Shown: one piece after another, positions 5,118-41,491 of the stretch | Numbering within the stretch: the first letter of the stretch is position 1 | How the letters are laid out: each line of letters begins with the position of its first letter | Assembly (NCBI GenBank): GCA_030145245.1 | Contig: JAQYWC010000001.1 | Coordinates: 1 to 64,000, forward strand | Origin: Desulfobacterium sp. | GTDB taxonomy: Bacteria > Desulfobacterota > Desulfobacteria > Desulfobacterales > Desulfobacteraceae | Length of the DNA: 64,000 nucleotides | Reading direction: 5' to 3' | Position numbers and translations under genes: made by a program | Notes under the pieces: generated by a model | Told to the model about the DNA's origin: nothing | Databases searched by the model: none | Seen by the model: the letters and a program-made list of their open reading frames with translations, nothing else

Positions 5118-6108
5118 GTTCGCTTCTCCGGTTTTTCTTGCTCTGCTGGCCGTCGTTCCCCTGCTGCTCCTGTTTCGGGCAAGGAATTCGAAAAACGTGA
5201 GTGTCAGAACCTCCGATCTGTCGTGGTTGAAAGATTCGCCGGTTACGTTGTTTCTACTTGTTTCCCGGGTTCTTCCCCTAATCAAGTATTGCGGTCTCGT
5301 TTTTTTGATCATTGCCCTGGCAAGGCCCCAGTGGGGCACCAAAAAGATGAACGTCAAGACTGAAGGGATCAACATCATTCTTGCCCTGGACCTTTCCGAG
5401 AGCATGGCCGCCCTTGACTTTAAGCTCGATGGTAGCATTGTCACCCGCCTGGATGCGGTGAAAAGCGTGGTCAAGGAGTTCATTATGAAGCGGGATGGTG
5501 ACAGGATCGGCATGGTGGTTTTCGGCTCCCAGGCCTTTACCCAGCTTCCCCTGACCCGCGACTATGAAACCCTCTCCTTTGTGTTGGACAGGCTGAAGAT
5601 AGGGGCCGCAGGTCCCAGCACCGCCATTGGCGATGCCATTGGGATCTCCTTGAAGCGGCTTGAAGACATTGAGAGTAAATCCAATATCATCATTCTTTTG
5701 ACAGACGGAAAGAGCAACAGCGGAGAGATCTCTCCCACGGCTGCCGCCGACATCGCAAATCAGCGGAATGTAAAGGTCTATACCGTGGGGGTGGGGCAGA
5801 AGGGAAAGGCACCATTTTTGGTGAACGATCCCCTGTTCGGGGAGAGGTATGTCTACCAGCGGGTGGACATGGACCATGAAACCCTGAAGAATATTGCCGG
5901 TACGACCCAGGGAGAGTTCTTCGCCGCCGGCGACACCGAGTCCCTGGGAAAGATCTATGACATCATCGACTCCCTGGAGAAAACCGAGGTGGAGGTCAAG
6001 GCCTGGGCTGAGTATGATGACCTTTACGTCTGGTTTGTGGTGGCAGGCGCGGTCCTTCTCGGCGTAACCGTTCTTCTTTCAAATACACGACTGCTAAGGA
6101 TTCCGTAA
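5110..6108 (+). CDS. batA: BatA-like vWA membrane protein
   Basis: A 332-aa protein with hydrophobic segments at about 5-22 and 46-72, a vWA domain from about 86, and a C-terminal membrane segment at about 308-328. The metal site DLSES starts at D94, and LLTDGKSNSG carries the third metal ligand region. The start is ATG 5110 with gagggagga upstream; an in-frame start at 5032 would run deep into the preceding gene. Bat proteins are thought to form an inner-membrane vWA complex worked on by MoxR. The next gene encodes a second vWA protein of similar topology. Confidence 0.9.
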   Translation: MFRFASPVFLALLAVVPLLLLFRARNSKNVSVRTSDLSWLKDSPVTLFLLVSRVLPLIKYCGLVFLIIALARPQWGTKKMNVKTEGINIILALDLSESMAALDFKLDGSIVTRLDAVKSVVKEFIMKRDGDRIGMVVFGSQAFTQLPLTRDYETLSFVLDRLKIGAAGPSTAIGDAIGISLKRLEDIESKSNIIILLTDGKSNSGEISPTAAADIANQRNVKVYTVGVGQKGKAPFLVNDPLFGERYVYQRVDMDHETLKNIAGTTQGEFFAAGDTESLGKIYDIIDSLEKTEVEVKAWAEYDDLYVWFVVAGAVLLGVTVLLSNTRLLRIP

Positions 6109-6113
6109 GCACA

Positions 6114-7949
6114 ATGAAGTTATCCAATCCCCATATGCTCTATCTTGTCTGGGTGGTGCTCCTGCTGGCAGGGGTGATCGTCTATGGTAATAAAAAACGG
6201 GCCAGAATTCTGGGCAGGTTTGCAACGGCAAAGGTCTTTGAGACCATTGCACCCGGAGTGAAAACAAAAAAACGGTTGATTCGCGGGGTGTTGACGACCC
6301 TGTCTCTCGTCTGCCTGGTTATTGCCCTGGCAGGTCCCCTGGTGGGGTTCCGCTGGGAAACGGTTGAACAGAAAGGGGTGGACATCATGATCTGCCTTGA
6401 CCTTTCCAGGAGCATGCTGGCCCAGGATATCAAACCGTCCCGTCTGGAACAGGCAAAGCGTGAGATCTTCGACCTTTTGGGAATGATGAAGTCCGACAGG
6501 GCAGGGCTTGTGGCGTTTGCCGGTAAAGCCATTCTTCAATGTCCCCTTACCATGGACCACGGTGCCTTTAACATTTTTTTGAACGCCCTTGAGCCCGACT
6601 ATCTTCCCGTGGGCGGCACCGACATCGGCGGTGCCATTGACACGGCCCTTTCCGGGTTTGAAAAGGAACTGGAGTCTGAAAAGGCGATCATTCTCATCAC
6701 CGACGGTGAAAATACCTCGGGAGTCCCCCTGGAGGTCGCGAAAAAGGCGGCCAAAGACAATGTCAGGATCTTCTGCATTGGCGTGGGTAGCGAGGATGGA
6801 GCCCCTGTTCCGGACGTCAGCGGCGGTTTTAAGAAGGACGGCCAGGGCCGGATCGTTATTTCAAAGGTTGATGATGCCGGGTTGGAAAAAATTGCAACAA
6901 CGGCCCGGGGGGTGTATGTGCGTTCTGTTGCCGGGGACATGGATCTTGACCGGATTTACGATCAGGAAATCCGGGGCAAGATGGAAAAAAAGACCTTGAA
7001 GAGCGGCAAGCGAAAGGTGTGGGAGAACCGGTTTCAATGGTTCCTCTTTCCGGCCGTTGTGCTGTTTTTGATCGAAACACTGCTCGCAGACAACAGACGG
7101 GGCATCTTTTTTTCCCTTGTTTTTGCATCTGCGGTTCTTGCTTCAACTCCGGAACCCGGTTTTGCCGGTGCTTCCAAAAGCGTTGAAAAGGGGATCGAAG
7201 CTTACCAGGCCGGGGAGTATGAGCAGGCGGAAAAGCATTTCATCGACGCCCAGCTGGACCGGCCCGAGATGGCAGAACTCTATTACAACATCGGAAGCGC
7301 CGCATATAAGAAGGGCGATTATGAAGCTGCCGTTAAAAATTTCACCCGGGCCGGGGAAACCGATGATTCAAATTTTAAAACCCGGGCCATGTACAACCTT
7401 GGAAATGCGTTGTACCGTTCAGGAAAGATTGAAGAGGCTGTAAGGGAATATGAAGAGCTGCTCTCCCTTGCCCCGGAGGACACCGATGCAAAAGAAAATC
7501 TTGAGTTTGTAAAGAAAAAACTTGAGGAGCAGAAAAAACAGCAGAAAGAGAATCAAAACAAAGATCAGCAGAAGGATCAGCAGAAGGATCAGCAGCAGGA
7601 AGATAAGCAGAATAAAGATCAGCAGCAGGAAAATAAGCCTGGGGATGACAAGGATCAAAACAGGGGCAAGAATAAAGACAAGCAAGATAACCCGCCGTCT
7701 GATGCAAGTCCCAAAGATTCCAAACCTTCCGAATCCAAGGATAGTCCGGGTGATTCCCAGGACAAGCCGGAAAAACAGGGCGACAGCAAAGAGCAGGCCT
7801 CCCGGCAACCAAACCCGGAAAACGGGCAATCCGGAACCATGGATCAGCAGGCCCAGGCCCGGGAACGAATGCTCAACCGCCTTACGGACAAGCCCGGAAG
7901 AGCCATGATGCCGGCTTACGACAAGGGACATGTTTCCAAGGACTGGTAA
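6114..7949 (+). CDS. batB: BatB-BatC fusion: vWA membrane protein with TPR domain
   Basis: A 611-aa protein. Residues about 1-320 are BatB-like: two N-terminal membrane segments, a vWA domain with DLSRS (metal site D96) and LITDGENTSG, and a membrane segment near 305-322. A second hydrophobic stretch (FFSLVFASAVLAS) with a small-residue tail resembles a signal sequence and is followed by tetratricopeptide repeats (about 350-470), matching BatC. The last 140 residues are a low-complexity tail rich in Gln, Lys and Asp. The arrangement places the TPR part in the periplasm. BatB and BatC are usually separate genes. It starts 5 bases after batA. Confidence 0.9.
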   Translation: MKLSNPHMLYLVWVVLLLAGVIVYGNKKRARILGRFATAKVFETIAPGVKTKKRLIRGVLTTLSLVCLVIALAGPLVGFRWETVEQKGVDIMICLDLSRSMLAQDIKPSRLEQAKREIFDLLGMMKSDRAGLVAFAGKAILQCPLTMDHGAFNIFLNALEPDYLPVGGTDIGGAIDTALSGFEKELESEKAIILITDGENTSGVPLEVAKKAAKDNVRIFCIGVGSEDGAPVPDVSGGFKKDGQGRIVISKVDDAGLEKIATTARGVYVRSVAGDMDLDRIYDQEIRGKMEKKTLKSGKRKVWENRFQWFLFPAVVLFLIETLLADNRRGIFFSLVFASAVLASTPEPGFAGASKSVEKGIEAYQAGEYEQAEKHFIDAQLDRPEMAELYYNIGSAAYKKGDYEAAVKNFTRAGETDDSNFKTRAMYNLGNALYRSGKIEEAVREYEELLSLAPEDTDAKENLEFVKKKLEEQKKQQKENQNKDQQKDQQKDQQQEDKQNKDQQQENKPGDDKDQNRGKNKDKQDNPPSDASPKDSKPSESKDSPGDSQDKPEKQGDSKEQASRQPNPENGQSGTMDQQAQARERMLNRLTDKPGRAMMPAYDKGHVSKDW

Positions 7950-27869: not shown

Positions 27870-27955
27870 AACCGGTAGACGCTAATTTGTCTTGAGGTCA
27901 CGATCGGTGCGGTTTTTCGTATGGATATAACCCTAGGTTCTTCATGAGGAAAATA

Positions 27956-29074
27956 ATGGAACAATTCAAACGATTTCATGAGGTTGCAGCAGATCCTGCC
28001 ACCTATGCCAGGCAGTGGAAAGAGAGGACCCGGGGCAGGGTGGTTGCCACCCTGTGCAGTTATGCGCCCGAGGAGATTCTGCTGGCCGCCAATGTTCTTG
28101 GGTTCAGGATACTTGGCACGGAAAGCCCCATTGTCCGGGCAGATGCCCATTTGCAGTCCTACTCCTGCACCCTGGTCAGGGGCGCCCTGGAGGAGGCCCT
28201 GGCCGGTCGGCTCGATTATGTTGACGGCGTCGTCTTTCCCCACACCTGCGACTCCATCCAGAGGCTTTCCGATATCTGGCGGATGAATGTGAAAACCGGG
28301 TTTCACATGGACCTGGTGCTTCCGGCAGATCTCACAACCCGGGCCTCCCTTGACTACATGACCGCCATCCTGGAAACCTTCGCCCGGGAACTTGGGGAAA
28401 AGCTTGGATGCGAGATCACCCGGGAGGCACTTGGGGCAGCCATTTCCACCTGTAATCAGATCCGTCGTGCTGTGATGAGAATTCATGCTTTGCGGAACAG
28501 GGTTCCCGAAGCCATGGCCGGTACCGATCTCCATGCCATGGTCAGGGCCGGCATGGTAATGGACAGAAAGGAATACCTCTCCCTGGTCACAAGTCTTGCC
28601 ACAGCCCTTGAGTCGGAATATCCGACCTCCCAATTCTACGGCAAGCGGATCGTTGTGGCAGGCGGGCTCTGCAATATGCCCGACCTTTTTGATGTGATCG
28701 AACAGACCGGAAGCCGTGTTGTCATGGACGACCTTTGTACCGGGTCACGGTTCTTCCAGGGAATTGTCGAGCCGGATGGCGATCTCTTCCGGGCCATTGC
28801 CAATCGCTACCAGAGCCGGATCGTCTGCCCAGCAAAACATTCGGGTCTCAGGGCCAGGGGAGAAGCCCTGGTTCAGATGGCCAGGGAGAGCCGGGCAGAC
28901 GGGGTTATGTTTTTCTGCCTCAAGTTCTGCGATCCCTTTGGGTTTGATTATCCGTACATTAAACAGATGCTGGACGACAACCAGGTGCCCAGCATGCTCT
29001 TTGAGCTGGAGGATTCCCTGGCCGCGGACGGTCAGTTTGAGACACGGTGCCAGGCATTCATCGAGATGCTGTAA
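27956..29074 (+). CDS. 2-hydroxyacyl-CoA dehydratase / benzoyl-CoA reductase-type subunit (HgdB/BcrC-like)
   Basis: A 372-aa subunit of the superfamily in which a 4Fe-4S protein takes one activated electron for dehydration of 2-hydroxyacyl-CoA or reduction of benzoyl-CoA. Length suits the smaller subunit. Cysteines in CSYAPEEILL, FPHTCDSIQRL and FFCLKFCDPF fit cluster-binding positions; VAGGLCNMP and DDLCTGSRF are typical. The start at ATG 27956 follows aggaaa; ATG 27944 is an in-frame alternative. The partner subunit follows at 29170. No activator ATPase (HgdC, BcrA/D) is seen in the window. Substrate unknown. Confidence 0.88.
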   Translation: MEQFKRFHEVAADPATYARQWKERTRGRVVATLCSYAPEEILLAANVLGFRILGTESPIVRADAHLQSYSCTLVRGALEEALAGRLDYVDGVVFPHTCDSIQRLSDIWRMNVKTGFHMDLVLPADLTTRASLDYMTAILETFARELGEKLGCEITREALGAAISTCNQIRRAVMRIHALRNRVPEAMAGTDLHAMVRAGMVMDRKEYLSLVTSLATALESEYPTSQFYGKRIVVAGGLCNMPDLFDVIEQTGSRVVMDDLCTGSRFFQGIVEPDGDLFRAIANRYQSRIVCPAKHSGLRARGEALVQMARESRADGVMFFCLKFCDPFGFDYPYIKQMLDDNQVPSMLFELEDSLAADGQFETRCQAFIEML

Positions 29075-29169
29075 AACTGAGGTTGCCCCCACCATTTGAG
29101 CGGGGGAATCTGGATTCATCAAGATGCTGTATAGTTAAGAACAAGTCATGGACAGACAGGGGAGATCTG

Positions 29170-30414
29170 ATGGGTACAAAGGAGAACGCAAGGGACTGCG
29201 AGAAGGAAAGGACAAAGATAAGGTGTGTCAAGACCATGAAAGATATCATGACCACCTATTATATAGATGCCAAAACAGCGGAGGAGAACGGCAAGAAGGT
29301 CGCCTGGATCACCAGCGGCGGGCCGGTTGAACCCCTCATTGCCATGGATGTGATCCCGGTTTACCCGGAGAACCACGGTGCCATGATCGGTGCCACCAAG
29401 ATGGCGGACGATTTGTGTGCAAAGGCCGAGGAGATGGGGTATTCCCGGGATCTTTGCTCATATGCGCGGTCGGATATCGCCTGCGCCACCGTAAACGGCG
29501 GGCCCATCGGAGGACTTCCCAGGCCTGATATGCTGGTGTGCTGCAACAACATCTGCGGAACGGTTCTCAAGTGGTACGAAGTCCAGGCCCGGTTTTTTAA
29601 TGTGCCCCTCTTCATCCTTGACACCCCCATCACCCACACCGCTTATTCCAAGGCCCAGCACCGCTATGTGGCCGACCAGTTCAACAATTATATGGCATTT
29701 CTGGAAGAGCATTGCGGCAAACCCTTTGATTTTGACCGCCTGGAGGAGGTGGGCAGGCTTTCGCTCAAGGGCCAGAAACTGTGGCAGGCGGTCCTTGACA
29801 CCACCATGAACAGGCCCGCCCCCATGAGCGCCTTTGACGCCTTTTTTCACCTGGCTCTCATTGTTACACTCCGGGGCACCCAGACCGCTGTGGATTACTA
29901 CCAGGCGTTGCTGGACGAGATGAACGAGCGGGTGAGCCTCTCCATATCGGCTGTACCAAAGGAGGAGATCCGGCTCATGTGGGACAACCTGCCGGTGTGG
30001 TACCGCACCAAATGGCTTTCCGATACCTTTGCCGGCCACAACGCCTGCCTTGTGGCTGACACCTACACCTCTGCCTGGTGCAGCTCCCTGCGCTTTCTGG
30101 ATGAGAATGACTTTTTCAATTCCATGGTGGAGGGGTATTCAAGGATCTATCTGAACACCGGGGTGGATGCCATGGCCGAGGAGGTCCTCTCCATGGTGGA
30201 GCGCTATAAGGCCGACGGCCTTGTGATGCACTCCAACCGAAGCTGCAAGCCCTACTCCCTGGGGCAGTATGATATCCAGCGGATTGTGCAGGAAAGGGCC
30301 GGGGTGCCGGTCCTGGTCATGGAGGCCGACATGTGTGATTCCAGAAATTTTTCCGAAAGCCAGATTCAAACAAGGATCGACGCCTTTATGGAGCTTGTTA
30401 GGGCCAACCTCTGA
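29170..30414 (+). CDS. 2-hydroxyacyl-CoA dehydratase / benzoyl-CoA reductase-type subunit (HgdA/BcrB-like)
   Basis: A 414-aa partner subunit of the same superfamily. KVAWITSGGPVEPLIAMDVI near the N-terminus, LCSYARSDIACA, LVCCNNICGTVLKWY and LVMHSNRSCKPYSLGQYDI carry the Cys residues expected for a 4Fe-4S cluster, and VLVMEADMCDSRNFSE is the characteristic C-terminal motif. The start is ATG 29170 with gggagat upstream; the longer frame from 29047 overlaps the previous gene. The pattern (PVYPENHGAMIG) looks closer to the benzoyl-CoA reductase B/O branch than to lactoyl-CoA dehydratase, but that is a judgement by eye. Confidence 0.88.
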   Translation: MGTKENARDCEKERTKIRCVKTMKDIMTTYYIDAKTAEENGKKVAWITSGGPVEPLIAMDVIPVYPENHGAMIGATKMADDLCAKAEEMGYSRDLCSYARSDIACATVNGGPIGGLPRPDMLVCCNNICGTVLKWYEVQARFFNVPLFILDTPITHTAYSKAQHRYVADQFNNYMAFLEEHCGKPFDFDRLEEVGRLSLKGQKLWQAVLDTTMNRPAPMSAFDAFFHLALIVTLRGTQTAVDYYQALLDEMNERVSLSISAVPKEEIRLMWDNLPVWYRTKWLSDTFAGHNACLVADTYTSAWCSSLRFLDENDFFNSMVEGYSRIYLNTGVDAMAEEVLSMVERYKADGLVMHSNRSCKPYSLGQYDIQRIVQERAGVPVLVMEADMCDSRNFSESQIQTRIDAFMELVRANL

Positions 30415-30565: not shown

Positions 30566-31504
30566 ATGGCGGATAAACCAATTTTAAAGATTGGGCATTT
30601 GAAAATAACGGATCATCTGATTCTCGGGGTCACAGATCTCAAGCTGAAAAAGGGCATGGAAAAATTTGAGCACTGCGACATCCAGACGGTTCTCAAAAAC
30701 GGCTGGAACGAGGTCGCCGATGCCCTGGCGACAAAGGCCCTTGATGGTGCGCTTATCCTTGCACCCACAGCCATGGATCTCTTCAAGTCCGGCGTGGACC
30801 TGAAGCTTTTGCTTCTTGCACATCGTTCCGGAAGTATCCTGGTCAAGAACAAGAGGGCAAACATCCAGAAGATCGAAGATTTTGCCGGAAAGACTGTGTT
30901 GATTCCCTATCAGCTTTCTGTTCACAACATGCTGTTCCACAGGCTTCTTTCGGAAAAGGGGCTGAAACCTGGCAGAGCCGTTGAGAAGGATGTTGATGTG
31001 ACCCTGGAGGTGGTGGCTCCCTTCCAGATGCCCGAGGCCCTCCAGTATGATGAGGATGGAGAGATCGGCGGTTTTATCGTTGCAGAACCCATCGGTTCCC
31101 AGGTGATCGCATCGGGCCTTGGAGAGGAATTTTACCTCTCAAAGGATCTCTGGCCGGCCCACCCCTGCTGCGTATTTGTCATGCGGAGCGAGATCATTGA
31201 AAAACATCCCGAGGCGGTTCAGGAGTTGACCACAAGTTTTGTAAAATCCGGACTTGCCATTGATGCACAGCCGGATCCTGCCGCGGCCATCGGTGCCCAG
31301 TTCCTTTCCCAGGACAAGTCTGTGATCCATAAGGTGCTGACCGATCCTCCGGACCGGATTGGCACCCACGAGCTCTTTCCGGTTCTCGAGGACCTGGATA
31401 TCATCCAGAAATACATGATGGACCAGATGAAAATCATGACCAGTCTCATCGATCTCAATAAATTCGTTGATACACGGTTTGCCAAGGAAGCCGGGGCAAA
31501 ATAG
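30566..31504 (+). CDS. NitT/TauT-type substrate-binding protein without signal peptide
   Basis: A 312-aa protein resembling ABC-type substrate-binding proteins of the nitrate/taurine/NMT1 group: LKIGHLKITDHLILGV at the N-terminus, ALILAPTAMDLFKSGVDLKL, then KTVLIPYQLSVHNMLFHRLL and IVAEPIGSQVIASG. No signal peptide or lipobox precedes the domain at ATG 30566 (ggaggtgg upstream), and no permease or ATPase is adjacent. It may therefore be a cytoplasmic binding protein or enzyme of this fold. It is 150 bases after the HgdA/BcrB-like gene, perhaps in the same operon, and is followed by a terminator. Confidence 0.75.
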   Translation: MADKPILKIGHLKITDHLILGVTDLKLKKGMEKFEHCDIQTVLKNGWNEVADALATKALDGALILAPTAMDLFKSGVDLKLLLLAHRSGSILVKNKRANIQKIEDFAGKTVLIPYQLSVHNMLFHRLLSEKGLKPGRAVEKDVDVTLEVVAPFQMPEALQYDEDGEIGGFIVAEPIGSQVIASGLGEEFYLSKDLWPAHPCCVFVMRSEIIEKHPEAVQELTTSFVKSGLAIDAQPDPAAAIGAQFLSQDKSVIHKVLTDPPDRIGTHELFPVLEDLDIIQKYMMDQMKIMTSLIDLNKFVDTRFAKEAGAK

Positions 31505-31515
31505 GGGCGTAAACC

Positions 31516-31564
31516 TAGGAGCAAGCGCCTGCAAAATATTCCCAGCTTGCTTGCTCCTATTTTT
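31516..31564. terminator. Terminator between the substrate-binding protein and MerR-like genes
   Basis: Perfect 11-bp stem taggagcaagc / gcttgctccta (31516-31526 and 31549-31559) followed by a T run to 31564. It serves the plus-strand gene; the convergent gene ends just beyond at 31568. Confidence 0.8.
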
Positions 31565-31567
31565 AGC

Positions 31568-32905
31568 CTATTTTTTTACGGCCTCAATGAACTTGTAGAT
31601 CTGGGCGATGGCTTTACTGCTCCATCGGGATTTACCCTTAAGGTTCAGAATTCCCTCGCTGTTGAATCTCCGGGTGGTCTCCTCCACACTCAGCCCCTCG
31701 GTTTTCAGCCGGATGATGATGTTGATGATTTCGGATTTGTACTGTTCAAAATTTTCTTCCGGGGTGATGGTCGGCCTGATGTTCGACTCCTCTGTCACCA
31801 GCAGCCCGAGGTCATCCAAGGGGATTGGCTTTTCTTCCACCAGCAGCCCGAGGTCATCCAAGGGGACTGGCTTTTCTTCCACCAGCAGTGAGAGATCATC
31901 CAGGGGAGCAGCCTCCTCTTCCACCAGCAGTGAGAGATCATCCAGGGGAGCAGCCTCCTCCGCCACCAGCAGTGAGAGATCATCCAGGGGAGCAGCCTCC
32001 TCCGCCACCAGCAGTGAGAGATCATCCAGGGGAGCAGCCTCCTCCGCCACCAGCAATGAGAGATCATCCAGGGCTGCCGTCTCCTCCGCCACCAGCAGTG
32101 AGAGATCATCCAGGGGGGCCGCCTCCTCTTCCACCAGCAGTGAGAGATCATCCAGGGGTGCCGTCTCCTCCGCCACCAGCAGTGAGAGATCATCCAGGGG
32201 TGCCGTCTCCTCTTCCACCAGCAGTGAGAGATCATCCAGGGGCTCTGTTGTTTCCGGAAAATCCTGTGCTCCGGGTTTATCCTCCACAAGCTGTGACAGA
32301 TCGTCCGTATCCTTGACAAGGTCTCCCATGCCCGGATCTGGCTCAAGGGCTGAAAGTTCTTCCATGGCAATGGCGCGGGTTGCATCAACCATGGCATGTG
32401 CGGGAGACGAACCCGGCAATACGCCTTGCTCCATCCCCTTGAGGGCCGTTGCAATGGCGTTCATGGCTAAGGCTTTTTTCTCTTCAGCCTCTGCCCGCCG
32501 TTCCATGGCAAGGGCCTTTTTCTCTTCGGCCCCGGCTCTTCGCTCCTGGGCCGTTGCCATCCTCTCCTGAAGGGTTGCCATGGTGCCAAGGAGGGATTCA
32601 ACCAGCCCAAGACTTTGTTTTCCGACGCTGTCCGCCTCTTTTTTCAAGTTCTCAGCCTCTTTTTGGGCGTTAAAGTCCCTGTCGTCAAGATGGGTTTCGA
32701 TCTCCGTGGGCAGCATGCCGGAATCGATCTTTTCTGCAATCACAAGAAGGGTGGCCAATGACTCCTGGGTGTATCGTTTTTGTCCCTGGTCAACTATATG
32801 GGGAAGCCATCTGCTGAAGCGATTGAGCCAGAATCTTATGGTGGACTGGCCTGTCCCCATTTCCCTGGCAAGTTCCGAAGCTGTGAGAAAATCATTTAAG
32901 GGCAT
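31568..32905 (-). CDS. MerR-like HTH protein with eleven 14-residue repeats
   Basis: A 445-aa protein, not a known family as a whole. Residues about 1-75 resemble a MerR-type winged helix (FLTASELAREMGTGQSTIRF ... KRYTQESLATLLVIAEKI). A coiled coil with Glu/Lys/Ala-rich repeats of EEKKALAMERRAEA spans about 90-165. About 220-375 holds eleven near-identical 14-residue units of the form APLDDLSLLVAEE. The C-terminal 60 residues (GLSVEETTRRFNSEGI ... WSSKAIAQIYKFIE) resemble the recombinase-domain end of serine resolvases, probably a second DNA-binding HTH. The repeat array is acidic and leucine-patterned, suggesting a binding scaffold. Possibly a chromosome- or phage-related DNA-binding adaptor; function unknown. 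Confidence 0.75.
   Translation of the reverse strand: MPLNDFLTASELAREMGTGQSTIRFWLNRFSRWLPHIVDQGQKRYTQESLATLLVIAEKIDSGMLPTEIETHLDDRDFNAQKEAENLKKEADSVGKQSLGLVESLLGTMATLQERMATAQERRAGAEEKKALAMERRAEAEEKKALAMNAIATALKGMEQGVLPGSSPAHAMVDATRAIAMEELSALEPDPGMGDLVKDTDDLSQLVEDKPGAQDFPETTEPLDDLSLLVEEETAPLDDLSLLVAEETAPLDDLSLLVEEEAAPLDDLSLLVAEETAALDDLSLLVAEEAAPLDDLSLLVAEEAAPLDDLSLLVAEEAAPLDDLSLLVEEEAAPLDDLSLLVEEKPVPLDDLGLLVEEKPIPLDDLGLLVTEESNIRPTITPEENFEQYKSEIINIIIRLKTEGLSVEETTRRFNSEGILNLKGKSRWSSKAIAQIYKFIEAVKK
31793..32254. repeat. Eleven tandem 42-bp repeats, in frame in the MerR-like gene
   Basis: The unit contains gagatcatccaggggagcag (plus-strand sense) and recurs every 42 bases, eleven times; the two copies nearest the 3' end of the gene (31798-31880) are the most diverged (gaggtcatccaagggg). 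The unit encodes DDLSLLV plus linker. Copy number should be prone to change by slippage or recombination. Confidence 0.9.
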
Positions 32906-33905: not shown

Positions 33906-34266
33906 GTTTTTGTCTGCCTCCTTTGGCTGTTCGAGCCCTTTTATGGATGTTTGCATTCGAATTGATACCAAATCACCAATTATAATAAGAAATGGGATCT
34001 ATTCATATGCGATGGGCCATAATTGTTCGCCCAAGTTTCAATGGGCACAATACCATATCCGTCATCAAGGTTGAACTTTTATTATTGAATCGTTTGACAC
34101 TGAAAAATACCCTTGGTATAGTCAAATTAATCATCTGTTTATCAAAAAACATACCATCACACATAGTTATGAATCATCGATTCAAAAAGGTTTTTTCCTA
34201 GGTATCGAGCATTTCAACTACGACGGGCAGCACGCCCCCTTTTGTGCTGCTGTGGGGGAGGTAACA
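33906..34266. other. Divergent intergenic region upstream of prkA
   Basis: 361 bases, A/T-rich, between the divergent nitroreductase and prkA genes. It must hold promoters for both. No convincing -24/-12 or strong -35/-10 site was found by eye. A stem gcagcac / gtgctgc (34227-34233 and 34244-34250) lies just before the prkA ribosome binding site, and its loop gccccc could pair with the SD region gggggag. Confidence 0.5.
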
Positions 34267-36330
34267 ATGGGTGAGAATAAAGATCAAAAATCTTTAATAT
34301 ACCATATCGATGCAGTTAAAAAGGGCAAGCGAACCTTTGAGGACGCATTCCAGGGCGTCTCAAGGATGATCCTTGAGGGGGGTGTGGAAAAGGTCAGCGT
34401 CAAGGGCAAGACCACCTACCATTTCGACATATTCAGCAAGGGAAAAAAGCATCTCATCGGCATGTACGACGAAATCAACAGTTTTGTTTCGTTTGTCAGG
34501 GATGCGTCCGAGGGGGGATCGTCCGGGGAGATGGCATTTGTCCTCGTGGGGGAGCCGGGCAATGGAAAGACCTTTTTTGTGGAGTATCTCTGCGATCAGT
34601 ATCGTGCTTTTCTCACAAAGCCCGAGAACAGGAAGTATACCTTCCGGTACAAGAAACTGAACGAGCTGAACGGTTATGGCCGGATCTCCACCATTGAATC
34701 CCAGACCTATGAGGATCCCATGATCTTTGCCATGGGGCTTTATGAAACCCAGGACGAATCCCGTGATTACCTTGCCAGGACGTTTCAATTTTCCGACAAG
34801 GAGCTGGATTCGCTTTTTGCGAAATATCGCCCACTGGGTGCCTGTTCCGGGTATATCTGGAGCCAGATCCGGGAGTATTCGGACAACGATCTTGAGACCA
34901 TGCTCTCGTTTGTCGATATTGTCCCTGTCCCCATGACAGAGAGCCTCGGCACCATCACCGGCAAGTATCCGGCCAAGGACAAGATCACAAGTTCGGCCGT
35001 GGACCTTCTGGGGGAGGAGTCGATCCAGAGGCTTCTCCATATCACCGACACCAACAACCCCTACAGGTTTGATTTAAGGCGGGGCGCCCTTGCCAGGGTG
35101 GCGGGTGGGGGAATCCATTTTTCCGACGAGATCTACAAGAACAAGAAGGATCTTGTCCAGGTTTATCTCGGGGTGATCCAGAACAGAACCATTGAGATTG
35201 ACGGCTACAAGTGGCCCATCGATTCCCTCATCGTTGCAACCAGCAACAACTCCGAATTCGATTCTTTCCTGGCGGAACGGGAGGAGGCGCCCATCGTGGA
35301 CCGCTGCCGCATCTGCTATGTGGCCCACAACACCGACTACAATCTTCAGACACAATTGACGAAATACGCCATTGGAAGCGATGTCAAGACCACCCTCAAC
35401 AGCGACAGGCTCCACCAGGACCCCAATCTCAACTATGCCGCTTCCGTGGGGGTGGTGCTGACACGGCTTCCGAAATCGGAAAAACTGACCCCGGTGGAGA
35501 CCATGAAGCTCGCCGCAGGCGAAGTGGCAGGCGAAAAAAGCCTAAAGACCCTGGCCGAACTCATCGACACCCTCAACCAGGGAACGGATATCACCAAGCG
35601 GTTCGGCCAGAAGGGACTGGGCCAGAGGAACCTTGGCCGCTCCATTCAGCTGCTGCTCGAGAGCAGCGAGACCAACGAGGGCAATTGCATGTTTGCCCTG
35701 GACATCTTCAACACCCTTGAGCGGGTGGTGCTTGACTATGTCACTGAACCTGCGGACCGGACCAAGTTCATGGACGATCTCAAGATCGCCCGGGGCCTCT
35801 ACCGGGAGCGGATCATGACCGAGATGTTCAACGCCTACATGGACGAACCCCTGGCCATTAAAAAGGATGTGATGAACTACATCAACATGATCATCGGGGT
35901 GGATGCGGAACACCTGGGCCCGGATATGATGTGGAAGTACAAGGACCCCCAGACCGGCGAACTCAAGGCCATGAAGATCGACGAGCGGTACATCAAGAAC
36001 GTGGAGGAGCGGCTCGGGCTCAAGACCGAGGAGCAGCGGGCCTCGTTCCGGAACTCCATCCGCAAGATCTACGGCCAGAAGATCACCATTGATCCCAACT
36101 ATGATTTCATGGATAACCTGGAGCTTGTAAAGGCTGTCACCGATGTGAGGCTCAAATCCGACATTGCAGGCGCCGGAAGCCTGGTGGGTGCCCTTGCCAA
36201 CCGCACCAACGAGGAGAACCAGAAACTCCATGACCGGATGATCAGTACCATGATGGAGAAACTCGGCTATTGCAGGACCTGTTCGACAAAGACCATCGAG
36301 TACTTCTGCAGCCAGGAGGATGACAAGTAA
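34267..36330 (+). CDS. prkA: PrkA family serine protein kinase
   Basis: A 687-aa PrkA. The N-terminal AAA domain has Walker A GEPGNGKTF with VEYLCDQYRAF after it and RGALARVAGGGIHFSDEIYK as the Walker B and following region; the C-terminal half matches the PrkA kinase-like domain (DEPLAIKKDVMNYINMIIG). In E. coli the homologue YeaG acts in stress and nitrogen starvation with YeaH and YcgB. The start is ATG 34267 with gggggag upstream; a GTG 5 codons earlier is the alternative. The next gene begins within its stop codon. It is the first gene of a four-gene operon. Confidence 0.95.
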   Translation: MGENKDQKSLIYHIDAVKKGKRTFEDAFQGVSRMILEGGVEKVSVKGKTTYHFDIFSKGKKHLIGMYDEINSFVSFVRDASEGGSSGEMAFVLVGEPGNGKTFFVEYLCDQYRAFLTKPENRKYTFRYKKLNELNGYGRISTIESQTYEDPMIFAMGLYETQDESRDYLARTFQFSDKELDSLFAKYRPLGACSGYIWSQIREYSDNDLETMLSFVDIVPVPMTESLGTITGKYPAKDKITSSAVDLLGEESIQRLLHITDTNNPYRFDLRRGALARVAGGGIHFSDEIYKNKKDLVQVYLGVIQNRTIEIDGYKWPIDSLIVATSNNSEFDSFLAEREEAPIVDRCRICYVAHNTDYNLQTQLTKYAIGSDVKTTLNSDRLHQDPNLNYAASVGVVLTRLPKSEKLTPVETMKLAAGEVAGEKSLKTLAELIDTLNQGTDITKRFGQKGLGQRNLGRSIQLLLESSETNEGNCMFALDIFNTLERVVLDYVTEPADRTKFMDDLKIARGLYRERIMTEMFNAYMDEPLAIKKDVMNYINMIIGVDAEHLGPDMMWKYKDPQTGELKAMKIDERYIKNVEERLGLKTEEQRASFRNSIRKIYGQKITIDPNYDFMDNLELVKAVTDVRLKSDIAGAGSLVGALANRTNEENQKLHDRMISTMMEKLGYCRTCSTKTIEYFCSQEDDK

Positions 36331-37493
36331 TGATAACCCTGGACGAACTCCTTGAGCGGGACCGGAAACGGGAAGAGGACGGATTCAAGAAAAAGATCCG
36401 CATCGGCCGTATTGTCAAGCCGGGTAAGGGGGGACGGGAGAAGATCGTTGTGGTGCCGACAACGGTGGAGGATAAGTTTGTCCATGACGAGCCCCTGGTG
36501 GACCCGGAGGGAGAGGGCGAACCCACCGGCGGCACCGGCGACGGGGAAGAGGGCGATGTGATCGGGGAAGCGCCCATACGACCTTCAGAAGAGGAGGGTG
36601 AAGGAGAGGGCGAGGGGCCGGGGGAGGGCGGAGGTGGAGAACACGAGATGGAGTCCAATGCCTATGAGCTTGGCAAGGTGCTCAGTGAGGACTTCCAGCT
36701 GCCCAACCTGACGGACAAGGGCAAGAAGCGGACCCTTGCAAAATTTGTGTACGAAATGACGGACAAACACCGGGGATTCGGCCAGATCCTGGACAAGAAA
36801 TCGACCCTGAGGCGGATCGTCCAGACCAACATCGCCCTTGGCAGGGTGCCGGATTTCTACAATATCGACACCTCAGGCTTCATCATTTCACCCAGGGACA
36901 TGATCTACAGGATCCTCTCCAAGGAAAAGGCATACGAATCCCAGGCCCTGGTTTTTTTCCTGCGGGACTACTCCGGCTCCATGGGGGGGAAACCCACCCA
37001 GACCGTGGTCTCCCAGCATGTGATGATCTATTCCTGGCTTCTCTATCAGTATGAAAAGCAGGTTGAAACACGGTTTGTCCTCCACGACACCGAGGCCAAG
37101 GAAGTGGACGATTTTTACAAGTACTACTCCTACAAGGTGGCCGGCGGCACCAAGGTGGTATCGGCCTACAGGCTGGTCAACCAGCTGGTGGAGGCCGAAA
37201 ACCTTGCCAGGGACTACAACATCTACGTGTTCCACGGCACCGATGGCGATGACTGGGATACCCAGGGAAAAGAGGCTGTGGGCGAGCTTGAGACGATGCT
37301 CGAGTATGCGGCAAGGGTGGGCATCACCATTGCCGAACACCGATACACCCGGGCCAATCAGACCGAGGTTGAAAAGTATATCAGGGCTTCCGGACTTCTG
37401 GAGAAGAAGAGCACCCTGTTGAAGCTGGATGTGCTCAAGGAGGACTCTGACGACGCAAGGATCATCCAGGGAATAAAAAAGCTGCTTTCGTAA
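36330..37493 (+). CDS. yeaH: YeaH/YhbH family protein (DUF444)
   Basis: A 387-aa DUF444 protein. A basic N-terminal segment is followed by a Gly/Glu-rich linker (about 60-105), then the DUF444 core with a vWA-like site: FLRDYSGSMGGKP (DxSxS form), FVLHDTEAKEVDD and FHGTDGDDW. The start ATG shares one base with the prkA stop (taATGa), so translation is coupled. With PrkA and SpoVR it forms the conserved trio of unknown mechanism induced in stationary phase or sporulation in other bacteria. Confidence 0.95.
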   Translation: MITLDELLERDRKREEDGFKKKIRIGRIVKPGKGGREKIVVVPTTVEDKFVHDEPLVDPEGEGEPTGGTGDGEEGDVIGEAPIRPSEEEGEGEGEGPGEGGGGEHEMESNAYELGKVLSEDFQLPNLTDKGKKRTLAKFVYEMTDKHRGFGQILDKKSTLRRIVQTNIALGRVPDFYNIDTSGFIISPRDMIYRILSKEKAYESQALVFFLRDYSGSMGGKPTQTVVSQHVMIYSWLLYQYEKQVETRFVLHDTEAKEVDDFYKYYSYKVAGGTKVVSAYRLVNQLVEAENLARDYNIYVFHGTDGDDWDTQGKEAVGELETMLEYAARVGITIAEHRYTRANQTEVEKYIRASGLLEKKSTLLKLDVLKEDSDDARIIQGIKKLLS

Positions 37494-37503
37494 CGGGGGA
37501 GCC

Positions 37504-39156
37504 ATGGAAATTGTCGACCAGCATGTGAAGAGCATCATGGAAGGTTGCAAGGAGCGCGCCAGGGACAAGGGCTTGCAGTTTGAGGACGAAACCCTGGAGT
37601 ATATCGTTACCAACCGGGACCTTCTGGAACTGAGTCCCAAGGTGATGATTCCCAACCTGTACGATTACTGGGTCCACGACGTGAGGGTGCTGTCGGGCAA
37701 GGGAAAATACGAGCTCTATCCGGACAACCCTTACGAGACCGTGATCAATACCCGGCCCGCCATCTCATTTTACAACGACAACAACCCGGACTGGCTCAAC
37801 GTCATGATCTTCTACCATGTACTGAGCCACATCGATTTCTTTCAGAACAACCTCTTTTTTCAGCATACCTGGGAGTACGATTTCGAGGGCCAGGCCCTGT
37901 CGGACAAGCGCCTCATCGCCAGGTACCGTTCGGAAAAGGGACGGTGGGTGGATTATCTCATCGAGTTTTCCCGGGGCCTCGACAACCTTGTGGGCTACCA
38001 CGACACCGTGGCCCGGACCATTACTCCCGCCCCCCGCAGGATGGAGAGAATCGACTACTACTTTGATATCTTTCTCCAGAAGGAGAAAAAGGTCTCCAGC
38101 AACACCTATCTCAAGGAGATCGCCCGGTACAACACCCTTCAAAAAAGCGAAACTTACACCAACGACAGCTTTTTCATCGATGTGATCCACAAGTATCCTG
38201 AGTTTGATGCCCTTTACAGAAAAAGGCTCAAGGCAAAAGAGCATCCCAGGCCAGACGTGATGCAGTACATCCTTGAGCATTCCACGGTGCTGAAAAAGGA
38301 GGAGAACAGTTGGATGAAGTCGGTGATGGAGGTGGTGCGGAACACCTCCCTCTTTTTCCAGCCCCAGATCCGGACCAAGATCATGAACGAGGGCTGGGCA
38401 AGCCTCTGGCACGAAATCCTTTTTATGGAGGATGACAGGATCCGCGGCCATGAGACCAACTTCGCCAAGGTCAATGCCGGCGTGACAGCCATGCCCAAGG
38501 TGGGGCTCAACCCCTATGCCCTTGGTATGAGGCTGTTCTACCATATCTGGGAAATGGAGGACAGGGGGTGTTACTCCCTTGACTACTTTCTCCTCAGGGA
38601 CGAGATGAAACGGGAAAATTTCAATGACCCCAGGAACTCGGGCAGGGGCCTCATCTTCAACATCCGGGAGAACCTGTGCGATTTCACCTTTATCAACAAG
38701 TATATCGACCAGGAGTTCATGAACCGCCATAAGCTCTTTGTCACCGGCACAAGAATCAACCGCCACCGCATGAGCATGGAGTACTATGTGAAGTCCAGGA
38801 GTGCCGAGGATTACAAGGAGATGCTCACCAACACCCTCTACCATCCCCCACGGATCCATGTGGACCATGAAAAGACCCAGAAGGGGCCGCTCTACCTGAT
38901 CCATACCTTTGAGGGTAAGGCGTTGAAGACTGATTTCATCGAGAACACCATGATCGGAATCGAGTTCCTGTGGGGAGAGCCCGTGCGTCTTGAGACCTGG
39001 GAGCATGTCAAGGCTTCGGCCCCCCACCAGATCCCGGGAAACTTCTGGGATCCTGTGGTGCCGAAGACGCCGGAAAGCAAGCCGGATGAGGAGCTTGTAT
39101 GGAAACGCTTCCTCTATGTCATGGAGAACAGAAAGCTCCATAAACGGGAGATATGA
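37504..39156 (+). CDS. spoVR: SpoVR family protein
   Basis: A 550-aa SpoVR-like protein, somewhat longer than B. subtilis SpoVR (about 470 aa) and near E. coli YcgB (510). Family motifs include FYHVLSHIDFFQNN, FARVN-type ETNFAKVNAGVTAMPKVG, NPYALGMRLFYHIWEMEDRG, and REN-LCDFTFINKYIDQEFM. No membrane segment is seen. It starts 10 bases after yeaH with a ggggag ribosome binding site and is followed by a second PrkA-like gene after 7 bases. SpoVR affects spore cortex formation in Bacillus, but this is a non-sporulating lineage by inference, so a general stress role is likelier. Confidence 0.95.
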   Translation: MEIVDQHVKSIMEGCKERARDKGLQFEDETLEYIVTNRDLLELSPKVMIPNLYDYWVHDVRVLSGKGKYELYPDNPYETVINTRPAISFYNDNNPDWLNVMIFYHVLSHIDFFQNNLFFQHTWEYDFEGQALSDKRLIARYRSEKGRWVDYLIEFSRGLDNLVGYHDTVARTITPAPRRMERIDYYFDIFLQKEKKVSSNTYLKEIARYNTLQKSETYTNDSFFIDVIHKYPEFDALYRKRLKAKEHPRPDVMQYILEHSTVLKKEENSWMKSVMEVVRNTSLFFQPQIRTKIMNEGWASLWHEILFMEDDRIRGHETNFAKVNAGVTAMPKVGLNPYALGMRLFYHIWEMEDRGCYSLDYFLLRDEMKRENFNDPRNSGRGLIFNIRENLCDFTFINKYIDQEFMNRHKLFVTGTRINRHRMSMEYYVKSRSAEDYKEMLTNTLYHPPRIHVDHEKTQKGPLYLIHTFEGKALKTDFIENTMIGIEFLWGEPVRLETWEHVKASAPHQIPGNFWDPVVPKTPESKPDEELVWKRFLYVMENRKLHKREI

Positions 39157-39163
39157 ATAGACC

Positions 39164-41491
39164 ATGGATAAAAAGTCTCTTGGAATGGCCAGTGATGTGA
39201 GTCCCGTCCAAAAGGCCGTGGCCTTTTTAAACCGGGACGACTCTTACTACGAAAAAATGAAGCCCCTTTCGTTTGTTCAGTTCCTGGACCTCATCGAGAA
39301 GAAACCCGGCAGGGTGATTCGAAACATCTTCCAGGTCTTTTACGACATGATGGTTTCCCATGTGGACGTGGCAAGCGATGCCATCCCGGACGATCCCGAG
39401 GAGTTCAACTTTACCTACTATGATTGTTCCCGGCTGTTTGTGGAGGGCTCGGAAAATCCCTATTTCACGGACCGGCTCTTTGCCAACCGGCTCATGAAGC
39501 ACATGGAAGGATTGCGTCACGGTGCCCAGCAGAACCGCATCTATATCTTCCACGGTCCCCACGGCTGCGGAAAGAGCACCTTTTTGAACAATTTTTTGAA
39601 AAAATTTGAAGAGTATGCCAACACCGAAAAGGGGATGCGCTACGAGACCCTGTGGCGCATTGATGTCAAAAAGATGGGGGGACCTAAAAGGACCGAGACA
39701 GCCACGGTGATCGAACGGCTGGTGACCCTGCTGGAAGACCACGCCCCGGATCTCATGGACGATGATGTGGAAGAAAAGCTTCACGTGGGATATGATCAGG
39801 ACTGTATCGAAATTCCCTGTATTTCCCACGATAATCCCCTTCTCATCATTCCCAAGAACCTTCGCCGGGGGGTGCTGGACAAGCTGATAAAGAACGACGA
39901 GTTCAAGTGGCGGCTCTTTACGGAAAAGCAGTATGAGTGGGTCTTCAGCCAGGAGGCGTGCACCACCTGTTCATCCATCTACCAGGCCCTGCTCGAGCGG
40001 TTTGGCAGCAGCGAAGAGGTGTTCAAGATGGTTTATGCCAGGCCCTATTACTTCAGCCGGCGCCTGGGCATGGGCATTTCCGTGTTCAACCCCGGGGATA
40101 AGCCCGTGAAGCAGAATGTCATCACCAACCCCATGCTCCAGGACCGGATCAACAGCCTGTTCCGTGACAGCAACCTCATCCATTACCTCTATTCCAGGTT
40201 TTCCAAGACAAACAACGGCATCTACGCCCTCATGGACATCAAATCCCATAATGTCGAGCGCATGGTGGAGCTTCACAACATCATCAGCGAAGCGATCCAC
40301 AAGGTGGAGGACCTTGAGGAGAACGTCAACTCTCTCTTCCTTGCCCTGATGAACCCCGAAGACAAGAAGAACATCCGGGAGTTTCCCTCTTTCTCAGACA
40401 GGATCCAGTATATCAATATCCCCTATGTGCTGGATGTGGAGACCGAGGTCAAGATCCTCACCAACATCTTCGGCCGTCACATCATCGACAGTTTTCTGCC
40501 CATGGTGATGGACAATTTTGCAAGGATCATCATCAGCTCCAGACTCAAGGAAAAGTCCGACACCCTGCTCGAATGGATACAGGATCCGGCCAAGTACCGG
40601 CTCTTCTGCGACGAGAAGCTGATGCTCCTGAAGATGGAGCTTTATTCGGGCAACCTGCCCAACTGGCTCCAGGACGATGACCGGAAGGCGCTCACCTCCA
40701 AGCTGTGGCGCAGGATCATCGCAGAATCCGAGACCGAAGGGATCAACGGGTTCTCCGGCCGGGACTCCATCCGGATCTTTGACCAGTTTTTTTCCATGTA
40801 TGCCAGGGAGGATCGGCTCATCAACATGCCGGTGCTCTGCGGGTTCTTCCGGAACCTTATGAAGGTGAGATCGGGCATGATCCCCCCCGGCCTCCTTGAG
40901 TCCATTTTAAGGATGTACGACTACAACGTGCTCCAGCAGGTCAAGGAGTCCCTCTATTATTACAACGAGGATCAGATCGAGCTGGACATCAAGAACTACA
41001 TCTCCGCCGTCAACTTTGAGATCGGATCCACGGCAAAGTGCATCTTCACCGGCGAGATCCTGGATATCACCAATGCCTATCTCGAGAGCATCGAAAACAG
41101 GCTCTTTATCGCCAACGCCGACCAGCGGCGACGTGAGATCATGCGCACCGATGTGCTCAAGGAGTACACCACAAACGCCCTGACAACGGAGATGATGGTG
41201 GAGGAAAAGCAGATCACCGAGACCCGGCTCTTTATCTCCCTCCACGAACGCTATGTCCATAACCTCAAGAAACGCGTGCTGGAACCGTTCCTGGACAACG
41301 AGAACTTCAGGGGGGCCATCAAGGATTATGATACCGAAGGGTTCAGGACCTATGACAAGCGCATCCGGAGCGATGTGGAGTTCCTGATCAAGAACATGAT
41401 GACAAAGTTCGGCTATACCAAGCAGGGCGCCAACGAGGTGTGCATCTACGTGATCGATTCCAATATTGCCGGCAAGTTCAAGGAGCTGTAA
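39164..41491 (+). CDS. Second PrkA-like serine protein kinase
   Basis: A 775-aa protein with the PrkA AAA domain (Walker A GPHGCGKSTFLNNFL) but an N-terminal extension and low visible identity to the first PrkA. MARK points: RIDVKKMGGPKRTETATVIE, ALMDIKSHNVERMVELHNII in place of the canonical DEI-E core, and a C-terminal domain FIENMMTKFGYTKQG-like ending (FLIKNMMTKFGYTKQGANEV). It is the last gene of the operon and 7 bases from spoVR. A divergent paralogue next to a canonical PrkA suggests a hetero-oligomer or partner-specific kinase, but that is inference. Kinase activity cannot be confirmed by eye. Confidence 0.85.
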   Translation: MDKKSLGMASDVSPVQKAVAFLNRDDSYYEKMKPLSFVQFLDLIEKKPGRVIRNIFQVFYDMMVSHVDVASDAIPDDPEEFNFTYYDCSRLFVEGSENPYFTDRLFANRLMKHMEGLRHGAQQNRIYIFHGPHGCGKSTFLNNFLKKFEEYANTEKGMRYETLWRIDVKKMGGPKRTETATVIERLVTLLEDHAPDLMDDDVEEKLHVGYDQDCIEIPCISHDNPLLIIPKNLRRGVLDKLIKNDEFKWRLFTEKQYEWVFSQEACTTCSSIYQALLERFGSSEEVFKMVYARPYYFSRRLGMGISVFNPGDKPVKQNVITNPMLQDRINSLFRDSNLIHYLYSRFSKTNNGIYALMDIKSHNVERMVELHNIISEAIHKVEDLEENVNSLFLALMNPEDKKNIREFPSFSDRIQYINIPYVLDVETEVKILTNIFGRHIIDSFLPMVMDNFARIIISSRLKEKSDTLLEWIQDPAKYRLFCDEKLMLLKMELYSGNLPNWLQDDDRKALTSKLWRRIIAESETEGINGFSGRDSIRIFDQFFSMYAREDRLINMPVLCGFFRNLMKVRSGMIPPGLLESILRMYDYNVLQQVKESLYYYNEDQIELDIKNYISAVNFEIGSTAKCIFTGEILDITNAYLESIENRLFIANADQRRREIMRTDVLKEYTTNALTTEMMVEEKQITETRLFISLHERYVHNLKKRVLEPFLDNENFRGAIKDYDTEGFRTYDKRIRSDVEFLIKNMMTKFGYTKQGANEVCIYVIDSNIAGKFKEL

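Follow-up and report, generated by a model that had tools for sequence, protein, structure and literature searches.

In the gene for P0001, which lies in the window (the analysed 64,000-nucleotide stretch of DNA from Desulfobacterium sp., a sulfate-reducing bacterium), a 42-bp unit is repeated in frame between a MerR-like head and a helix-turn-helix-like tail. This raises the question of whether the acidic linker encoded by the repeats matters to the protein, and of what kind of protein would carry it. P0001 is uncharacterised and probably a DNA-binding protein. No whole-protein model for it was found in Pfam, NCBIfam or PHROGs, where the best PHROGs row was phrog_20553, of unknown function (E 4.3e-6 across residues 8-144), and a literature search, with most subscription journals outside its coverage, returned no paper on the family. 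The gene is present as a single copy in its own genome, G000 (6.4 Mb, 83 contigs). The features of the locus are collected in Table 1.

Table 1 Features of the P0001 gene and its neighbours (positions in the window)
Feature	Residues	Positions	Strand	Basis
NMT1_2-like protein, tail-to-tail with the P0001 gene		30557..31504 (ATG at 30566)	+	PF13379, 3.5e-31
ORF P0001, 445 aa, stop codon included in span		31568..32905	-	ATG start
C-terminal HTH-like domain (Pfam match)	390-436	31598..31738	-	PF07508, first half
Disordered acidic linker	160-386	31748..32428	-	AF2 pLDDT <50
Eleven tandem 14-aa units, DDL[SG]LLV at each start	224-377	31775..32236	-	
Isolated first motif, DDLSQLV	201-207	32285..32305	-	
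Long helix, presumed coiled coil	66-159	32429..32710	-	alignment A1, AF2
MerR-type winged helix-turn-helix	8-74	32684..32884	-	PF13411
Nitroreductase with 4Fe-4S ferredoxin domain, upstream of the P0001 gene		33000..33971	-	Pfam
Divergent prkA - yeaH (DUF444) - spoVR - prkA-like		34252..41491	+	order conserved

The first-pass annotation had proposed an N-terminal MerR-like winged helix with a coiled coil, and this layout was recovered by Pfam (MerR_1; E=1.4e-9, 38.3 bits against a curated cut-off of 21.6), by the AF2 model and, weakly, by Foldseek. In the model, residues 9-61 form helices 9-18 and 22-29, strands 36-39 and 42-45 and helix 47-61 at modest pLDDT, and the long helix that follows contains the longest invariant stretch of alignment A1 of the family. 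The top Foldseek rows for the whole model were the RacA-DNA complex 5i44, TnrA-DNA, GlnR and other MerR proteins, none of them below E 0.27; TnrA was also matched weakly in NCBIfam and among PDB sequences. The full-length AF2 model (mean pLDDT 50.8, with three C-terminal helices at 382-444) was computed on a shallow alignment of 4 sequences and used for its broad layout alone. No C-terminal effector-binding domain was found in P0001 with Pfam or NCBIfam, and GlnR/TnrA-like members likewise have none. The linker is strongly acidic, with a net charge of -56 and a pI of 4.05 over residues 166-375.

The C-terminal domain had been described as like the end of serine recombinases, which holds in part. 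It is three-helical and HTH-like (pLDDT 87.3 when residues 373-445 were modelled separately) and it resembles the first half of the Recombinase model PF07508, spanning positions 3-48 of 102; however, that model covers the middle of large serine recombinases, not their end. In whole P0001 the match scored 18.5 bits, below the cut-off of 21.1, and it rose above that value (23.2 bits) only when the C-terminal 72 aa were scanned separately; 29 of 29 C-termini scanned were matched, with a best E of 2.2e-5. Large serine integrases made up 7 of 19 Foldseek rows for this domain, including the best (E 3.1). In VIA-align, integrases reached Z 5.6 and 5.4, no higher than the DNA-binding domain of SETMAR (6.7) and PEX14 (5.6), which marks the fold as a widespread three-helix type.

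The array itself was delineated by Tandem Repeats Finder at 31796-32242, with 84- and 126-bp multiples, and DDL[SG]LLV recurs eleven times in P0001 at exact 14-residue steps, which bears out the earlier count of eleven in-frame repeats. A twelfth motif, DDLSQLV, stands 23 residues ahead of the array. Units 5-8 are 93-100% identical to one another in DNA, two of them completely, and units toward the C-terminal side are more divergent. The near-identical copies fit a recent local expansion, as had been supposed for the central copies. Long frames across the array on the opposite strand are by-products, since the period is divisible by three. When copy number was compared, as had been suggested, three genomes of the genus had 7.4, 9.8 and 11.2 copies, and the unit is a different one in the genome with 11.2. 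In the sister genomes G059 and G000 the 14-residue unit is common to both, and different codons are used at the same motif positions, so each array has been homogenised separately.

Such an array could arise by local slippage within an acidic linker that serves as a neutral spacer, and the nearly identical copies, the separate homogenisation in G059 and the varying copy number all speak for this. Nevertheless, we consider it highly improbable, because the motif is kept far beyond the array. In the linkers of 42 relatives (29 proteins of the own family and 13 of other families), [DE][DN]LxxL[IVL] was seen 273 times against 2.1 expected from 500 shuffles per linker. Each of the 42 linkers exceeded its own shuffle mean and 41 exceeded the shuffle maximum; L074, where merely a 66-residue linker stretch was cut out by the rule used, tied it. 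Every linker held at least one motif, 39 of the 42 held 4-12 copies, and the motif was also present in linkers without a tandem array. L010 and L027/L051 (cut, or with X at the end) are excluded from the motif counts, and L003, L031, L033, L053 and L075 additionally from the shuffle test. The idea that homologues carry the repeats as an ordinary linker of no effect is thus contradicted in part, the motif being kept even where its spacing and flanks have diverged.

Because the search patterns themselves prescribe the two leucines, support for these two positions comes from the enrichment over the shuffles. The remaining positions were read from 242 copies in 32 proteins, collected with [DE][DN]L[SGNTAYDF]xL[IVLTAS]. 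Position 1 was D in 235 copies and position 2 was D in 223; position 4 was S in 188, G in 13, D in 13 and T in 9, with others making up the rest. The preceding residue was mainly L, M or I and the following one mainly D or E. Relatives in family f18 carry W at position 4, many of their copies reading DNLWDLV or DDLWSLV. Spacing between motifs was irregular in 28 of the 32 proteins listed, mainly 10-60 residues with a maximum of 89. Tandem DNA arrays of at least 2.4 copies were found in the linker of 12 of 46 genes scanned, with units of 42 bp (the window gene and G059), 45 bp (G058, L071 and L073), 48 bp (L075), 51 bp (L093), 54 bp or its double of 108 (L052, L064, L065 and L068) and 57 bp (L094). 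In the own genome, an eight-codon motif pattern matched five times in the P0001 gene and three times elsewhere, and its reversed control not at all; the match on C31 lies inside a 579-aa frame that looks GTPase-like by eye, that on C79 within no open frame above 80 aa, and that on C14 reads DDFSDF by eye.

Taken together, the enrichment, the irregular spacing and the arrays of several unit lengths suggest that the motif is under selection and that the 42-bp array is probably one lineage's way of multiplying it. In our reading of these sequences, selection would act on the motif and on motif number, not on the 14-residue unit. The motif is probably a docking site, multiplied again and again in the course of evolution.

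P0001 relatives were found by protein search in 57 of 86 genomes of the own family, including 31 of 42 good-quality ones; the gene was not found in 29, some of them incomplete. When 389 genomes of the order were searched with a profile, 101 had matches, many to the coiled coil or the MerR domain only, and reading of the loci left 14 relatives outside the own family, in four other families (f18, f35, f52 and f68). In two of the 14, from f52 and f68, the frame was found without the MerR head, and L075 (G281) has only an N-terminal profile match, its frame stopping ahead of the C-terminal domain. The related loci include one record from Desulfobacterium sp. and two from Desulfotignum sp. Alignment A5 at E 1e-10 gave 13 matches in 12 of 395 genomes sampled from the phylum, one of them the own gene; 11 of the 12 others (the second G684 match left out) were without motif and without C-terminal domain, and no further full relative appeared among the loci read from this sample. 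Four plasmid records were matched: three autotransporter or peptidase genes, with the match inside residues 197-383, and a DUF3967 protein, with the match at residues 5-83. The phage search returned no record. The first-pass statement that no close family is known thus stands for named families, but relatives are widespread in the order. This is a real family, nameless in the libraries searched and of unusual design. In genus g3, the coiled-coil part of L153, L154 and L156 is lengthened by short repeats, e.g. AEMKKAEAEMQKAEAE in L153.

Wider kin also occur in the order, namely small coiled-coil proteins, most of them starting with M(N/S)DFL, whose helix (AEERKAEA...) is similar to that of P0001 and whose C-terminal HTH-like domain is the same. 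Eight of them were read: they are 191-319 aa long, a basic Q/N-rich N-terminus replaces the MerR head, and all eight have 0 motifs. For three of these kin no Pfam or NCBIfam match was above cut-off, except Recombinase in one. Two paralogues of this kind lie in G000 itself (L141 and L142; C7 14752-15354 and C70 about 5316-6167). The helix with the C-terminal HTH-like domain may be an older chassis to which the MerR head and the motif linker were added later, the direction of change being our inference.

The P0001 gene runs tail-to-tail with a gene for an NMT1-like protein in 19 of 21 family loci. Among solved structures, this protein is closest in sequence to 3un6, an ABC substrate-binding protein (E 5.2e-22). 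Its sequence is also related to the regulatory C-terminal part of NrtC/CmpC proteins (E 3.8e-8 to 2.4e-6), with all NCBIfam rows below their respective cut-offs. No signal peptide was visible by eye, and a role as cytosolic sensor is plausible. Even across other families the protein is 68-75% identical. Between the two convergent genes, at 31505-31567, a hairpin AGGAGCAAGC...GCTTGCTCCT followed by a T-rich stretch was noticed by eye, and it reads like a terminator shared by both. Two genes that look 2-hydroxyacyl-CoA dehydratase-like by eye precede the NMT1-like gene in the window (27944-30414).

In raw counts uncorrected for kinship, with an ortholog cut at 78% identity of our choice and with the proviso that two linked genes may vanish in one step, the 86 family genomes comprise 54 with both genes, 3 with the P0001 gene only, 3 with NMT1 only and 26 with neither. 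The P0001 gene without NMT1 was found in G004, G008 and G075; G004 and G075 hold merely a piece of the P0001 gene at a contig end, and G008 has no NMT1 match, yet 6 motifs. NMT1 without the P0001 gene was found in G009, G010 and G085. Among the 389 order genomes outside the family, again uncorrected for kinship, 13 have both, 1 has the P0001 gene only and 11 have NMT1 only, with no P0001 relative beside NMT1 in these 11; NMT1 without the P0001 gene was met in 14 genomes in all. In other families NMT1 accompanies the P0001 relative in 13 of 14 genomes, G211 being without it; the two are convergent in 9 of 14 loci and on different contigs in four more genomes. G211 has 2 motifs in its linker and is given no weight here, since the NMT1-bearing L093 also has 2 by the same count.

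Within genus g3, G002, G003, G005, G006, G007 and G011 carry the two genes on separate contigs; the sites are well within contigs in G002, G005 and G007, and in G003, G006 and G011 the separation may reflect contig breaks. In G021, assembled as a single contig, the P0001 gene and NMT1 each carry one in-frame stop (L137, G021:C1:2922500-2927500). Six family genomes that lack the gene were examined at this site (L077-L082): in four, prkA1 directly abuts the gene otherwise beyond NMT1, and one 83-aa frame or two frames lie in between in the other two. The P0001 gene and NMT1 thus have the look of a cassette whose insertion or loss involved both genes at once.

On the other side, prkA1 is head-to-head with the P0001 gene in 19 of 21 family loci, sometimes with the nitroreductase or another frame between, and the nitroreductase cluster is present in 7 of 21. 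In the examined stretches of the 14 other-family loci prkA, yeaH and spoVR are absent (L064 is cut by its contig end just upstream of the gene). PrkA was rejected as main partner, since the neighbourhood was seen in one family only and PrkA, with 78 of 86 family genomes, is more widespread than the P0001 gene with 57; G013 (99% complete) and G044 have the P0001 gene and no PrkA match. A PrkA phosphosite at the motif serine was dropped as a general rule, G, D, T, N, A or W standing in its place, and so were short MerR proteins beside prkA as ancestors, none having prkA in the examined stretch.

A 27-bp promoter element, TTTATTTATTNNNNAAAATTCAATAAA, lies upstream of the gene in L008, L009, L011, L012, L017, L021, L022, L024 and L026, followed in most of them by TTGTCGATT. 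In nine g5 genomes with the gene, picked after inspection of the upstream regions, it has exactly one zero-mismatch site per genome, just upstream of the gene. In eight g5 genomes without the gene no zero-mismatch site was present, though G043 has a single site with 2 mismatches; the pattern reversed as a control matched once each in G056 and G038. The element is diverged or absent in G051 (L028) and G053 (L013), g5 genomes with the gene outside the nine, and the scan leaves out G033, G034 and G050. No genome-wide regulon acting through this element was seen, the sole site in each of the nine genomes lying just upstream of the gene itself; the element could be a plain promoter.

How would such a protein work? 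Our preferred reading, to which we give a probability of about one half, is that P0001 is a multimeric DNA-bound docking platform with a RacA/Par-like build. The long helix would assemble the protein into dimers or larger multimers, DNA would be held by one of the helix-turn-helix domains or by both, and the amphipathic acidic motifs of the linker, about [LMI]D[DN]L[S/G/W]xL[IVL][DE], would bind a partner protein with avidity. Motif number would then set binding strength, with tandem duplication as a quick adjustment. Its likeliest use would be local regulation of the own gene and its neighbours. Given the co-occurrence, the cytosolic NMT1-like protein would be the first candidate partner or signal source. 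This reading is supported by the domain calls and models, the motif enrichment, the co-occurrence with NMT1 and the paired stops in G021; the sole g5 element, the prkA context in a single family, the NMT1-only genomes, the weak Foldseek E-values and the low pLDDT count against it. Of the first-pass interpretation, the domain layout and the recent expansion of the array are supported, and DNA bridging or protein recruitment by a scaffold would be possible roles.

Two other explanations take the same parts differently. P0001 may be a tether with an architectural role, like RacA, pSK1 Par or RocS: its winged helix would bind sites on the chromosome, and its linker motifs would connect these sites with one another or with some structure of the cell. 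The order of parts, as in RacA and Par (PMC11500499), the RacA-DNA complex as best Foldseek row (E 0.27) and two HTH-like ends that could bridge DNA favour this explanation; but inspection by eye turned up no anchor or membrane motif, and a gene not found in 29 of 86 family genomes, some of them incomplete, is ill-suited to a core segregation factor, which leaves a tether possible but unlikely. It is more doubtful still that P0001 is an autoinhibited regulator with no protein partner, in which the acidic array competes with DNA for the protein's own basic C-terminal HTH. The linker charge set against a C-terminal pI of 9.63 is consistent with this mechanism, yet charge alone would not keep the D[DN]LxxL[IVL] core so much more frequent than in shuffled linkers of equal composition, and the C-terminal pI is 6.48 in one of five relatives computed. 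The docking platform could also be narrowed to a two-gene signalling cassette of Desulfobacterales. In it the NMT1-like protein, as a cytosolic protein of solute-binding type, would dock in a ligand-dependent way on the D[DN]LxxL[IVL] motifs of the coiled-coil platform, itself bound to DNA, and the array would be a tunable valency counter. We regard this version as improbable; if it were true, a metabolite would be translated into a count of proteins assembled at a promoter, by a counter adjusted through tandem duplication.

For eukaryotic regulators, a disordered linker with several copies of a short docking motif is a standard device; few bacterial DNA-binding proteins are known to use it. 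The P0001 family offers a natural series (4-12 motifs in 39 of 42 relatives, regular or irregular spacing, six unit lengths) for a test of valency tuning in a bacterial regulator, and it places an unannotated family beside poorly understood conserved neighbours, the NMT1-like protein and the PrkA-YeaH-SpoVR stress genes. The CheY-docking peptides of FliM and CheZ are likewise short acidic amphipathic helices; the FliM motif EIDALL resembles D-L-S-A-L-I, and one relative contains NDDIDALLA, a resemblance alone that we take as a lead. MerR, TnrA and GlnR regulators share the PF13411 winged helix with P0001 but are roughly 110-150 aa long against its 445 aa. MerR-type proteins typically bind a dyad between the -35 and -10 boxes of promoters with a long spacer and distort the promoter. 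The C-terminus weakly resembles large serine integrases such as Bxb1 in the first half of their PF07508 domain; no resolvase catalytic domain was among the Pfam matches of the 445 aa (E up to 1). As described in PMC11500499, RacA and Par of pSK1 combine a MerR-type winged helix-turn-helix, a coiled coil and a disordered C-terminal part and act in chromosome or plasmid positioning, and RocS has a MerR-type winged helix at its N-terminus with a coiled coil behind it. P0001 shares with all three the MerR-type domain followed by a (predicted) long helix, and with RacA and Par the disordered part; no likeness to them was found beyond the MerR domain, and P0001 differs in its second, C-terminal HTH-like domain and its conserved acidic motif array. 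We read the comparison as a likeness in build and do not class P0001 among these proteins.
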